Assembly: GCF_017742995.1 (NCBI RefSeq)
Contig: NZ_CP072425.1
Location: 3,977,001 to 4,041,000 of the forward strand
Direction: 5' to 3'
From: Pseudoalteromonas viridis
GTDB taxonomy: Bacteria; Pseudomonadota; Gammaproteobacteria; Enterobacterales; Alteromonadaceae
Length of the DNA stretch: 64,000 nucleotides
Both the position numbers and the translations under genes were made by a program. The notes beneath the pieces were generated by a model that did no database searches, was not told the origin of the DNA, and worked only from the letters and a program-made list of their open reading frames with translations. Of the stretch, positions 47,936-51,588 are shown in pieces (within the stretch, counting starts at the first letter, position 1; every line of letters starts with the position of its first letter).

Positions 47936-48448
47936 ATGTTGAACAAACTTGCTGAATTTTCTCGTACCCGGCTTGCCTGGGGCGTGTTGTTTTTGTCCGC
48001 TTTCACGCTGGAAGCCATCGCCTTGTATTTTCAGTATGCCATGGGCCTTGAGCCCTGCATTATGTGTATTTATCAGCGTACTGCCGTGCTTGGCATTGTG
48101 GCCGCAGGCTTGATTGGCCTGGCCTCACCGACCAGTTTGCCTGTCAGGTTCATCGCCATGAGTTGCTGGGGTATTTCTGCGATTTGGGGCTGGTTGCTGG
48201 CAAAAGAGCATATTGCGATGCAAACCACCACAGATCCGTTCGCCTTTACCTGCGACTTTGTGCCTAACTTCCCAAGCTTTATGCCTTTACATGAATGGCT
48301 GCCGGCTTTCTTCGCGGCGACCGGAGATTGTGGTAACATTGACTGGTATTTTGCGGGTCTGTCGATGCCAGGCTGGATGGAAGTGATTTTCGCACTTTAC
48401 AGCGTCTGCTTTATCGCCTTTGCCGCCGTATTTATTGTTAAAAGATGA
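47936..48448 (+). CDS. dsbB: DsbB, disulfide bond formation protein B
   Basis: 170 residues, four membrane helices. Periplasmic Cys pairs Cys41-Cys44 (LEPCIMCIYQR) and a second pair (FTCDFVPNF and GDCGNIDW) are conserved. It reoxidises DsbA using quinones. AAAGGAAC lies before the ATG. Followed by a short membrane protein gene 7 nt downstream. Confidence 0.95.
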   Translation: MLNKLAEFSRTRLAWGVLFLSAFTLEAIALYFQYAMGLEPCIMCIYQRTAVLGIVAAGLIGLASPTSLPVRFIAMSCWGISAIWGWLLAKEHIAMQTTTDPFAFTCDFVPNFPSFMPLHEWLPAFFAATGDCGNIDWYFAGLSMPGWMEVIFALYSVCFIAFAAVFIVKR

Positions 48449-48455
48449 GACGTAA

Positions 48456-48758
48456 ATGGTTTTCAGACTGAGTAAACTCGCCGAACTCGATGACTTTGCA
48501 CTGCGTGATAAACAACGTATTAAAGCGCAGGCGTTGGCGCAGCTACCTGCATCACAAAAAATTATGCTTAATATCGCCAAGCTCATGCTGTTAACTCCGC
48601 TATTCATGGCGCTGGCCTTTATCGAAGGCTGGATATTGCTGCCCGTGTTACTCGTATGCGGGCTGGCTTACCCCTTGCTCACCGTGCCGCTTGAGATCCT
48701 GTTTGCCCGGCCTTATTTGCAGCAGGCCATCGCTGAGTTTCGTAAAACCAATCAATAA
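48456..48758 (+). CDS. Small conserved membrane protein
   Basis: 100 residues: a charged N-terminal helix (LSKLAELDDFALRDKQRIKA) then two membrane helices (about 40-57 and 60-80). It resembles the DUF6170 family; I am not certain. It begins 7 nt after dsbB, so it is likely cotranscribed. No role can be assigned. Confidence 0.68.
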   Translation: MVFRLSKLAELDDFALRDKQRIKAQALAQLPASQKIMLNIAKLMLLTPLFMALAFIEGWILLPVLLVCGLAYPLLTVPLEILFARPYLQQAIAEFRKTNQ

Positions 48759-48781
48759 AAAAGTGGTGCACTGCACCACTT
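48755..48781 (-). terminator. Terminator of the 52-aa peptide gene
   Basis: AAGTGGTGC - ACT - GCACCACTT, 9-bp stem. Only the minus strand has a T-run (complement of 48755-48762), so it serves the minus-strand gene at 48797. Confidence 0.78.
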
Positions 48782-48796
48782 GTCTACTCGCCAGCT

Positions 48797-48955
48797 TTAA
48801 GCTCGGCAATCCGGGCCTTTACTGAGCTCCTCACACCAAACCGTCCAGGGCTTAGTGGTATAGCCGCCGCCTACCTGAGGAGTATTGGCCCGCGCCAATT
48901 GTTGGTGTTGTTCATTAAGACGTTTTAGTTTGCTGGTTTTTAATTGTAGTTTCAT
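48797..48955 (-). CDS. Putative RiPP (natural product) precursor peptide
   Basis: 52 codons plus stop, below usual ORF cut-offs. Leader MKLQLKTSKLKRLNEQHQQL is followed by ARANTPQVGGG; after the Gly motif comes a 21-residue putative core with Trp37, Trp40, Cys41 and Cys50 plus Thr and Ser residues (YTTKPWTVWCEELSKGPDC). The shape (KLxLKxxKLKxL leader, TPQV, Gly-Gly, short Cys/aromatic core) recalls natural-product precursor families of marine gammaproteobacteria and Bacteroidetes. AGGAAG lies 10 nt upstream of the ATG and a factor-independent terminator follows. No maturase or C39 transporter is in the window, so it would be matured by distant genes, or it is a stand-alone peptide. Confidence 0.6.
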   Translation of the reverse strand: MKLQLKTSKLKRLNEQHQQLARANTPQVGGGYTTKPWTVWCEELSKGPDCRA

Positions 48956-49236
48956 TACTTCGCTTCCTTCTTGGTTATTGTTTCAAGACCATAAAATCAC
49001 AAAGGCTCTGTCACTCTCAAGCTCAAAAAACAAACAAGTGTTACAAGATAATGCTATCGACATACCCTTTCACATTGTTGTTAGCTGAATACACCTTTGA
49101 CGATTGAAATCAGGTAAGCTGTCCGGCGAGTCGCTTTATTACTGCTATAATCAAGCTCAATGACCCGCAAGTTTGGGTCATCAGCGTTGCTTGTTCCTCC
49201 AGGGAGTTGGAATAATCGTTATCATTGAGGTACTCA
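48956..49236. other. Divergent promoter region of the peptide gene and the TonB receptor
   Basis: It holds the ribosome site of the leftward peptide gene, a TATAAT hexamer at 49146-49151 likely serving the receptor, a leader hairpin TGACCC/GGGTCA (49161-49180) and the Fur-like box. No further ORF seen. Confidence 0.5.
49210..49224 (+). promoter_or_regulatory. Fur-like box just before the TonB receptor start
   Basis: GAATAATCGTTATCA matches 12 of 15 positions of TGATAAT-N-ATTATCA. It overlaps the leader and ends 12 nt before the ATG at 49237. Confidence 0.45.
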
Positions 49237-51588
49237 ATGAAAAATAGACTCCCTTGTATCGCCAGTTTATGTGCAAGCTGTATGTTGTTTAGCGCAGCTT
49301 CTGTTGCCCACAAAACACCCGGCAATGACACCGATGTGTTCGCCTTGTCTATCGATGAGCTGCTGGAAGTAACGGTTGAAGCCCGCAAAGTCAAAGAAAA
49401 CGCGCTTGCCATTCCCGTTTCTATTTCTGTCATGTCAGAGCAGTTTCTGCGCGAACGTAATGTAAACACCTTGCTGGAGGCCGCTTATTTTATACCCAAC
49501 ATTGATGTCACCACAGTCGGTGAAAACTCTGGCTGTACACACTGTGCAAACATCACCATTCGCGGCATTGGCCAGGTTGATCCACTGCCCACGGTCGACC
49601 CCAGCGTAGGGCTCTACCTCGACGGAGTTTACTACGCCCGCTCCCCCGGTGGTATTTTTGACTTATACGATGTGCGCCAGGTTGAAGTATTGCGAGGCCC
49701 GCAAGGGGCTATTTTTGGTAAAAATACCATAGGCGGCGCAGTTACTATCTACACGCACGACCCCGTCGAAGACACGTTTGCTGATGGTGAAATCACACTG
49801 GGTGCGTTCGAGCGCAGGGATGTCCGAATGCGCGCAAACCTTGCACTCAGCGACTCCCTCAGCAGCCGCTTTACCTTCACTCACCTCAATCGTGATGGCT
49901 TTGTTATACGTGACAACGGCGAGTTTGAAGGTGGTCAGGATGAATGGGCGGCAAGCGCCAAGTTTCGCTATCAGGCCAGCCCGCAACTGACCGCTCAGCT
50001 GTCTTTGGACCAGCGCCGCATTAATTCGGGATCGGCACCGTCTGTTCTCGCAGCAAAGAACGATCAGGCTGATCTGCTGGTGCTGTACAACGACCTGGTC
50101 GCACAAAGTGGTGTTGCCGAGCCCTACCCGCCGCTGCAGATCTTTGGCAATGCGCATCGCAGTGCCTCGCTGGGCACTAACTTTAACACGCTAGATCAAT
50201 CCGGCGTTTTGCTCTCGCTCGAATGGCAAACGCCCCAGCAATGGCAGTTAAAGTCTCTCACCGCCTATCGGGAGTTTTATGCCACTTATGGCCGCGACTT
50301 TGACAATAACCCGGCCATCATTGGCGATACCCAGGACTTTCAGCGCCAGTTTCAGTTCAGCCAGGAGCTGCACATCAGTGGCAGTGCGCTGGACGAGCAG
50401 CTCGACTGGCTGGTGGGCTTATTCCATTTTGATGAGCATATCAATCACCTCACCGACCTGGTTTTTATCGGCGGGCTCTACCAGGCACTGGAAAGTGTTC
50501 CGGGTCCGCTCGATGGCTCTCCTCTGGATGATCCAACCAGTATCGGCGGGCCAGGCAACCCGCTGAACATTGGACTGGATATCGACAGTGGCTTTGACAA
50601 CCAGGTGGATATTAAGAGTACCGCAGTGTTCACCCATATGAAATACGCACTAACACAACACTGGGCTGTGCACCTGGGCGGGCGACTGACCTTCGAGGAT
50701 AAAATGCAGCAGGTACAAAGTGATGCCGATAATGCCAGGGTCATTTTGATCGACAGAACACGCCACACGCAGGGGCAAAAAAATGGCGGCCCGATCGAGC
50801 GCAGCTGGCGGGTGTTTTCTCCTCAGGGGGGCATTGAATACCACTTCAGTGATAAACAGTTCGTCTATTTAAGTGCATCGCGGGGCTTTAAATCCGGTGG
50901 GTTTAACGGCATACCTAATTCACCAACATCCGCTCAGCCCTTTGATCCTGAATATCTCACGGCGTATGAGCTGGGCTACAAAAGCAAATTGCTGGCAGAT
51001 ACTTTGCAATTCAGCTTAGCTGCCTTTGATATGCAGCATAAGGACATGCAATTACGGGGCGGTCAGTCTACTGAAGCAGGCCTTGAGATTTTTATCGACA
51101 ATGTTGGAGAAACCCGTATTCGTGGTATTGAAGCCAGCTTTGAGGCACTGCCAGCACCAGACTGGCGCTTGTCTGGCAACCTGTCATACACAGATGCCCG
51201 GTTTGATTCTGTGGGTACTGCCACTCAGGTCACCACGGACAGCAAACTGATGCGCTCGCCGCGCTGGACCGCTGCCCTGGGGCTCAGGTATCACTGGCAC
51301 ACCGCCATGCGACACCCTGTCAAGATTGGGCTCGACTGGGGTTTTCGCAGCAAAACGTATAACGATGTGTTTAATACTGAGCTGGGTGCACAAGGGAGTT
51401 TTTCCTTAGTGAATGCGCGTATCAGTCATGCCATCACCGATCAGCTGGAGCTTGCCTTGTTTGTTCGCAACCTCACTGATAAGCGCGTGCTGATCGGTGG
51501 CAATGACTTTACCGAAGTATTTGGTGTGGCCGAGCATTACCTGGCACCACCCAGAGAGTGGGGTTTATCCTTTTCGTACCAGTTTTAA
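49237..51588 (+). CDS. TonB-dependent outer-membrane receptor
   Basis: 783 residues from the ATG at 49237 (GAGG at good spacing). Signal peptide (RLPCIASLCASCMLFSAASV), a plug domain (VEARKVKENALAIPVSISVM, YLDGVYYARSPGGIFDLYDV, EVLRGPQGAIFGKNTIGGAV) and a 22-strand barrel ending with an aromatic (GLSFSYQF). It takes up a siderophore, vitamin or glycan oligomer using TonB energy; the substrate is not readable. A Cys pair in the plug (SGCTHCAN) is unusual. A binding-like protein gene follows 12 nt downstream. Confidence 0.93.
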   Translation: MKNRLPCIASLCASCMLFSAASVAHKTPGNDTDVFALSIDELLEVTVEARKVKENALAIPVSISVMSEQFLRERNVNTLLEAAYFIPNIDVTTVGENSGCTHCANITIRGIGQVDPLPTVDPSVGLYLDGVYYARSPGGIFDLYDVRQVEVLRGPQGAIFGKNTIGGAVTIYTHDPVEDTFADGEITLGAFERRDVRMRANLALSDSLSSRFTFTHLNRDGFVIRDNGEFEGGQDEWAASAKFRYQASPQLTAQLSLDQRRINSGSAPSVLAAKNDQADLLVLYNDLVAQSGVAEPYPPLQIFGNAHRSASLGTNFNTLDQSGVLLSLEWQTPQQWQLKSLTAYREFYATYGRDFDNNPAIIGDTQDFQRQFQFSQELHISGSALDEQLDWLVGLFHFDEHINHLTDLVFIGGLYQALESVPGPLDGSPLDDPTSIGGPGNPLNIGLDIDSGFDNQVDIKSTAVFTHMKYALTQHWAVHLGGRLTFEDKMQQVQSDADNARVILIDRTRHTQGQKNGGPIERSWRVFSPQGGIEYHFSDKQFVYLSASRGFKSGGFNGIPNSPTSAQPFDPEYLTAYELGYKSKLLADTLQFSLAAFDMQHKDMQLRGGQSTEAGLEIFIDNVGETRIRGIEASFEALPAPDWRLSGNLSYTDARFDSVGTATQVTTDSKLMRSPRWTAALGLRYHWHTAMRHPVKIGLDWGFRSKTYNDVFNTELGAQGSFSLVNARISHAITDQLELALFVRNLTDKRVLIGGNDFTEVFGVAEHYLAPPREWGLSFSYQF

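Follow-up and report, generated by a model that had tools for sequence, protein, structure and literature searches.

The finding reported here is a dispersed system more than a single gene. A 52-aa ORF inside the window, by which we mean the whole stretch of 64,000 nucleotides from Pseudoalteromonas viridis that was analysed, is very probably the gene of a LanA-type precursor for a class I lanthipeptide, one member of a hypervariable family whose genes are dispersed and depend on a single enzyme block. We favour this reading because of the leader shared at 30 loci, the single LanB–LanC–C39/ABC–HlyD block, the co-occurrence of leader and LanB across genomes, the Ser/Thr–Cys spacing of the cores and the selection acting on the ORF. 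It also appears fairly likely that Pseudoalteromonas, and perhaps independently a second genus (g14, tentatively Thalassomonas), has arrived at its own class I version of the prochlorosin system, in which one promiscuous LanB/LanC pair and a C39 exporter handle a fast-changing library of up to at least 74 precursors per genome.

The 52-aa ORF, with the sequence MKLQLKTSKLKRLNEQHQQLARANTPQVGGGYTTKPWTVWCEELSKGPDCRA, is a genuine gene, and its features are the following:
48797..48955 (including the stop codon), minus strand: putative LanA-type precursor gene, 52 aa, an ATG-started ORF with orthologues and under purifying selection
48863..48955, minus strand: leader, residues 1–31, MKLQLKTSKLKRLNEQHQQLARANTPQVGGG, common to the genome-wide leader family
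48800..48862, minus strand: core, residues 32–52, YTTKPWTVWCEELSKGPDCRA, with predicted rings
48965..48972, minus strand: ribosome-binding site AAGAAGGA, 10–17 nt 5' of the ATG
48761..48781, minus strand: intrinsic-terminator-like hairpin followed by a T run, from folding and a terminator scan

The border between leader and core was placed by alignment to the AGG motif of the leader family. An earlier, sequence-only reading of the window had described an unlisted 52-aa gene with its own ribosome site, a minus-strand-specific terminator and a core holding two Trp, two Cys, three Thr and one Ser, and all of this agrees with the ORF, with the ribosome-binding site listed above and with the 21 residues that follow GGG. 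The region 48800–48740 folds with −23.4 kcal/mol (z = −5.4, none of 200 shuffles being as good), and the T run of the hairpin is specific to the minus strand since the plus-strand copy of the hairpin precedes TGTCTACT. A sigma-70-like promoter was not found between 48400 and 49300, where shuffles lead one to expect 1.0. The same reading would have given up the gene for want of a codon or selection signal, and such a signal is present as purifying selection in leader and core. The window gene has five syntenic orthologues in the Pseudoalteromonas rubra group which differ from it mostly by synonymous changes; against L005, the most diverged of them, the core shows seven synonymous differences at 13 sites and three nonsynonymous at 50, and the leader 15 at 21 and nine at 72, respectively. 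This pattern identifies a protein-coding gene under selection and rules out a chance ORF. Scans of the peptide against Pfam and NCBIfam gave zero matches, and plasmid and phage records gave none either, in a comparison from which records very close to the host genome may be excluded.

Comparison of the window peptide with the host genome revealed more loci that share residues 1 to about 33, and a profile search found 30 leader loci at E ≤ 0.01 (29 of them with E < 1e-5) spread over both contigs. The profile was made from 19 leaders, so that 17 of the 30 loci match by construction and 13 are new; five weaker matches with E from 0.26 to 4.1 were left out. As ATG-started ORFs of 45–77 aa, 29 of the 30 could be read, with the start taken by the script as the one nearest to the match. 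The remaining locus, C1:2547545-2547628, is the weakest of all (E 0.0085), shows no start codon (ATG, GTG or TTG) when its open frame is followed upstream and is perhaps a decaying precursor. The sequence AGGA is found within 18 nt upstream of all 30 loci, and 11 of them are followed within 150 nt by a terminator-like site, compared to a mean of 1.36 and a maximum of five in 50 simple (not dinucleotide) shuffles. The leader consensus is MKLxLKKKxLKxL...TPQVAGG, with TP in 24 of 30 and Gly-30 invariant among 17 aligned members, and all 30 leaders end in AGG/GGG or a GA-type motif, which is partly by construction as the script cut there. Mean pairwise identity is 0.49 for the leaders and 0.25 for the cores (0.23 for shuffled cores); the cores are 29 aa long on average, differ almost completely in sequence and all contain Cys. 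The homologue search that had been proposed from the window alone has thus led to a conserved leader with variable cores, and the precursors are dispersed like those of the prochlorosins. The NCBIfam models for class I leaders recognize at most three of 17 members and these weakly (L1a two, best E 0.089; L1b one, best E 0.0011), and the published motif LxLxKx5L is present exactly in 14 of the 30, the window peptide having Thr in place of Lys. The turnover of cores can be seen in genome G243, for which 24 of 32 leader loci were inspected and 22 cores parsed: 13 have more than 0.5 identity to a host core, the window gene being among the cores common to both genomes, and nine have no host counterpart above 0.5, one of these (L182) being at 0.50.

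The host genome has a single LanB, a single LanC and a single C39 match, and all three are located in one operon-like block at about 1.210–1.218 Mb of contig C1. The window gene lies at 4.026 Mb of the same contig and thereby, if the chromosome is circular, at least 1.4 Mb from the block in either direction. The stretch L035, which carries the block, has the following features:
L035: LanB, 1049 aa, with both dehydratase Pfam domains
L035: LanC, 406 aa (open frame 413 aa), the only LanC-type match in the genome
L035: C39-ABC transporter, 714 aa, the only C39 match in the genome
L035: HlyD, 414 aa
L035:2500-3114: protein of unknown family, 204 aa, just downstream of LanB
L035: AraC-type regulator, downstream of the block together with the 204-aa protein
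L035:12854-12997, opposite strand to the block: leader-bearing ORF, 48 aa, beyond glmU

Alignment to solved structures showed that RPTPFG of LanB, WCYG and CHGF of LanC and the Cys/His/Asp residues of C39 are all present, and we take these residues to have their usual roles; the LanB structure alignments end near position 880, and the end of the elimination domain is covered by Pfam only. The 204-aa protein gave no confident family assignment and occurs at some, though not all, Pseudoalteromonas hubs. A search of the genome for LanM, LanB and C39 genes, as had been suggested, thus led to the LanB/LanC/C39/HlyD block and to no LanM (class II) synthetase, the only LanC-type match being the stand-alone LanC. 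LanB and LanC are accordingly both present, as class I requires, and presumably cognate, and the GG-type site of the leader is matched by one C39-ABC transporter whose catalytic residues align with those of a solved one. The leader family and this transporter back the proposal of a RiPP precursor with a double-glycine leader of the C39 type. That the window itself has no maturation enzyme or transporter, as had been noted, holds for LanB, LanC/LanM and C39, whose only matches are elsewhere. Of the three scenarios offered to account for this, a stand-alone bacteriocin and a loss of partners find no support because the genome has the enzyme block and 29 further loci that share the leader. The third, modification in trans, is supported at the level of sequence, with the enzymes encoded far from the gene.

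Leader and LanB are nearly always found in the same genomes. LanB is present in 51 of 108 Pseudoalteromonas genomes, each of which carries the leader family as well, while 56 of the 57 LanB-free genomes are without it and the last one (G678) has one marginal match with E 0.0058. A single LanB match is present in 47 of the 51 LanB-bearing genomes, and they have from one to at least 74 leader loci each (median 20, at least 1331 in sum, eight of the 51 counts being lower bounds). Of 295 genomes sampled from the family, 26 carry the leader, and every one of these also has LanB, which in G040 is in pieces; 262 of the 269 leader-free genomes have no LanB and seven do. Six of these seven show weak LanB matches (E weaker than 1e-40) and one, G080, a strong one (6e-109), and its precursors may carry a different leader. 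A Fisher test gives p of about 1e-30 for the association in both samples, in which the genomes are related; we therefore put weight on the contrast within the genus and on the few matches in LanB-free genomes. In a sample across the class, leader matches were found in three of 369 genomes, host included.

Outside Pseudoalteromonas, 14 genomes are low in copy number, with one to three leader matches, and in the LanB stretches of nine of them 13 of 17 leader matches were read as ORFs. The sole leader locus of one genome (G042:C6:94825-94920) has an internal TAG, lies near a LanB/LanC/C39 block and is not among the ORFs read. In four g14 genomes (L146, L147, L148, L149) LanB and LanC are accompanied by two to three adjacent leader ORFs; the LanB stretch has no C39 gene there, and each genome has three to six C39 matches elsewhere. 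The stretch L161 (genome G186) has LanB next to a single leader ORF, whose core is poor in Cys, and no LanC match; some 3 kb ahead of this stretch the contig carries a C39 gene. Two precursors (L159:10779-10970 and L164:12620-12868) carry a partly duplicated leader segment. In a LanB tree of 21 rows, which is rooted only at the midpoint and has long branches that meet, the many-copy clades of g14 and of Pseudoalteromonas (g1) are parted by low-copy lineages, a topology that would suit independent expansion and on which we do not rely.

The cores themselves would also suit thioether rings. Among their 100 Cys residues, 90 have Ser or Thr two to six residues upstream, compared to 57.9 (sd 5.0) in shuffles, none of 2000 being as high. 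With the spacing narrowed to −2 to −4 the excess is small, 53 compared to 42.5 expected (sd 4.8), a count that 1.75% of the shuffles reach. Ser/Thr is also common at +2 after Cys (33 of 87), and the pattern is therefore not strictly one-sided. The window peptide has what is expected of a LanA, namely a leader followed by a core whose Ser/Thr and Cys residues could be joined into (Me)Lan rings. Its core was compared with those of Pseudoalteromonas fenneropenaei (P0028), YTTRPWTYYCEESGRFCEV, and Thalassomonas sp. RHCl1 (L006), YTSRPWTWYCEEPTNPLMC, and T-x-x-C-E-E followed by S/T...C is conserved among them; Thr-x-x-Cys is exact in both distant relatives, and the second Ser/Thr–Cys pair is kept with varying residue and spacing. 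Because both pairs are kept, we predict rings between Thr38 and Cys41 and between Ser45 and Cys50, for which the computed monoisotopic mass of the core would fall from 2469.146 unmodified to 2433.125 after two dehydrations. Relatives of the P. luteoviolacea type have the leader and YT in common with the window peptide and differ in the remaining core. The names listed for 58 database relatives include at least one 'class I lanthipeptide' and at least one 'bacteriocin'.

In the likeliest of the rival explanations the peptides would receive no modification and would be class II bacteriocins or microcins with disulfide bonds, which use C39 only, with LanB and LanC serving just a nearby precursor gene. 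GG leaders and one C39 exporter would indeed suffice for such peptides, the cores are rich in Cys, and the leader-bearing ORF L035:12854-12997 is close to the enzyme hub. We nevertheless regard this as improbable, as the presence of the leader family follows that of LanB with a single marginal exception in the 108 genomes, as family leaders adjoin LanB/LanC in low-copy genera, as Ser/Thr upstream of Cys exceeds the shuffles, and as an odd number of Cys, found in 16 of the 30 cores, fits poorly with intramolecular disulfides alone.

For a class I lanthipeptide the following biosynthesis can be proposed. LanB would bind the LxL...LKxL motif of the leader, glutamylate Ser and Thr using glutamyl-tRNA and then perform the elimination, its acceptance of distant precursors being inferred. 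LanC would couple each Cys to a dehydro residue, which yields MeLan Thr38–Cys41 and Lan Ser45–Cys50, with Thr33/34 perhaps remaining as Dhb. The C39 transporter would cleave after Gly31 and, in concert with HlyD and a channel in the outer membrane, export the core. What is released is probably a secreted peptide with two rings that would act as an antimicrobial or as a signal.

That the window gene is instead a decayed or idle relic which no longer feeds these enzymes is very unlikely: its distance from the hub and the lack of a promoter consensus at 48400–49300 would fit, but leader and core are under purifying selection in the window gene and its five orthologues, ribosome site and terminator are in place and the core is conserved in other species. 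Equally unlikely is a functional tie between the product, as a signal or nutrient-linked peptide, and the neighbouring TonB receptor. The precursor gene is divergent from this receptor in the window and at all five P. rubra-group loci, where the DsbB, DUF6170, Nudix and TonB neighbours are all kept, and the sequence-only reading had seen a possible link to metal uptake here, with a Fur-like box before the TonB gene. Against this, the receptor was not found within the stretches fetched (8.4–16 kb) for four of four more distant loci, from Thalassomonas and from P. luteoviolacea/sp. SMS1 relatives, and the window has no match to a Fur consensus with up to three mismatches. A search of the same stretches at these four loci for 12 genes from around the precursor in the window came back empty, and a TonB-linked regulator was rejected for this absence of the neighbourhood. 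We read the TonB neighbour as a sign of common ancestry of the locus rather than of a functional link.

Class I lanthipeptides are already known from marine Thalassomonas and Pseudoalteromonas (PMC11433236, PMC12819058, PMC9993889, PMC11015633), with viridisin (T. viridans), thalassomonasin (T. actiniarum), pseudorosin (P. flavipulchra) and PciA (P. citrea) as named examples; the first two have been reported to contain lanthionine rings and to come from clusters with several precursors each (PMC11433236, PMC12819058, PMC9993889). As far as these descriptions go, the window family would likewise be class I, is from the same or related genera, and differs in that its members occupy 30 loci genome-wide whereas theirs are described within a gene cluster. 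The viridisin leader is reportedly of the double-glycine type. For P. viridis BBR56 an antiSMASH class I region with LanB, LanC, C39, a sugar nucleotidyltransferase and an AcrB-type pump has been listed (PMC11015633), apparently the same hub as L035; the word 'precursor' is absent from the main text of that paper. In a literature search that did not extend to the original descriptions of viridisin, thalassomonasin and pseudorosin, which may say more, no paper recognisably devoted to class I precursors dispersed in this way came up for these bacteria.

In the class I lanthipeptides of Bacteroidetes an LxLxKx5L leader, a GG site and often a C39 protease in the cluster are found (PMC7268733). The GG site and the C39 protease recur in the window family, 14 of whose 30 members have the motif exactly; in contrast, the window family is gammaproteobacterial with dispersed precursors. 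That survey covered seven genes around the LanC-type protein and would therefore miss dispersed precursors, as it says itself for those of the prochlorosins (PMC7268733). If our reading is true, genome mining limited to neighbourhoods would miss most products; the leader loci in 51 Pseudoalteromonas genomes number at least 1331. Picocyanobacteria are known to have dispersed lanthipeptide libraries that depend on class II enzymes, and a class I version, if true, would show that glutamyl-tRNA-dependent dehydratases too can turn into general-purpose tools, offer tens of natural substrates per enzyme from which the tolerance of LanB and LanC could be learned, and make the role of such libraries testable in culturable bacteria. 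A close parallel is offered by the class II prochlorosins with their scattered precursors (PMC10783134, PMC11251773), where a single synthetase serves tens of genes at separate places in the genome, with 29 precursors for ProcM and 79 putative ones for SyncM (PMC10783134). The window family likewise has tens of scattered precursors, which one enzyme block would serve. It differs from the prochlorosins and synechococsins, with their class II LanM and Nif11 leader, in having class I LanB and LanC in another lineage and a short LxL...LKxL leader, which is 31 aa long in the window peptide and belongs to a peptide without a Pfam match, Nif11 included.
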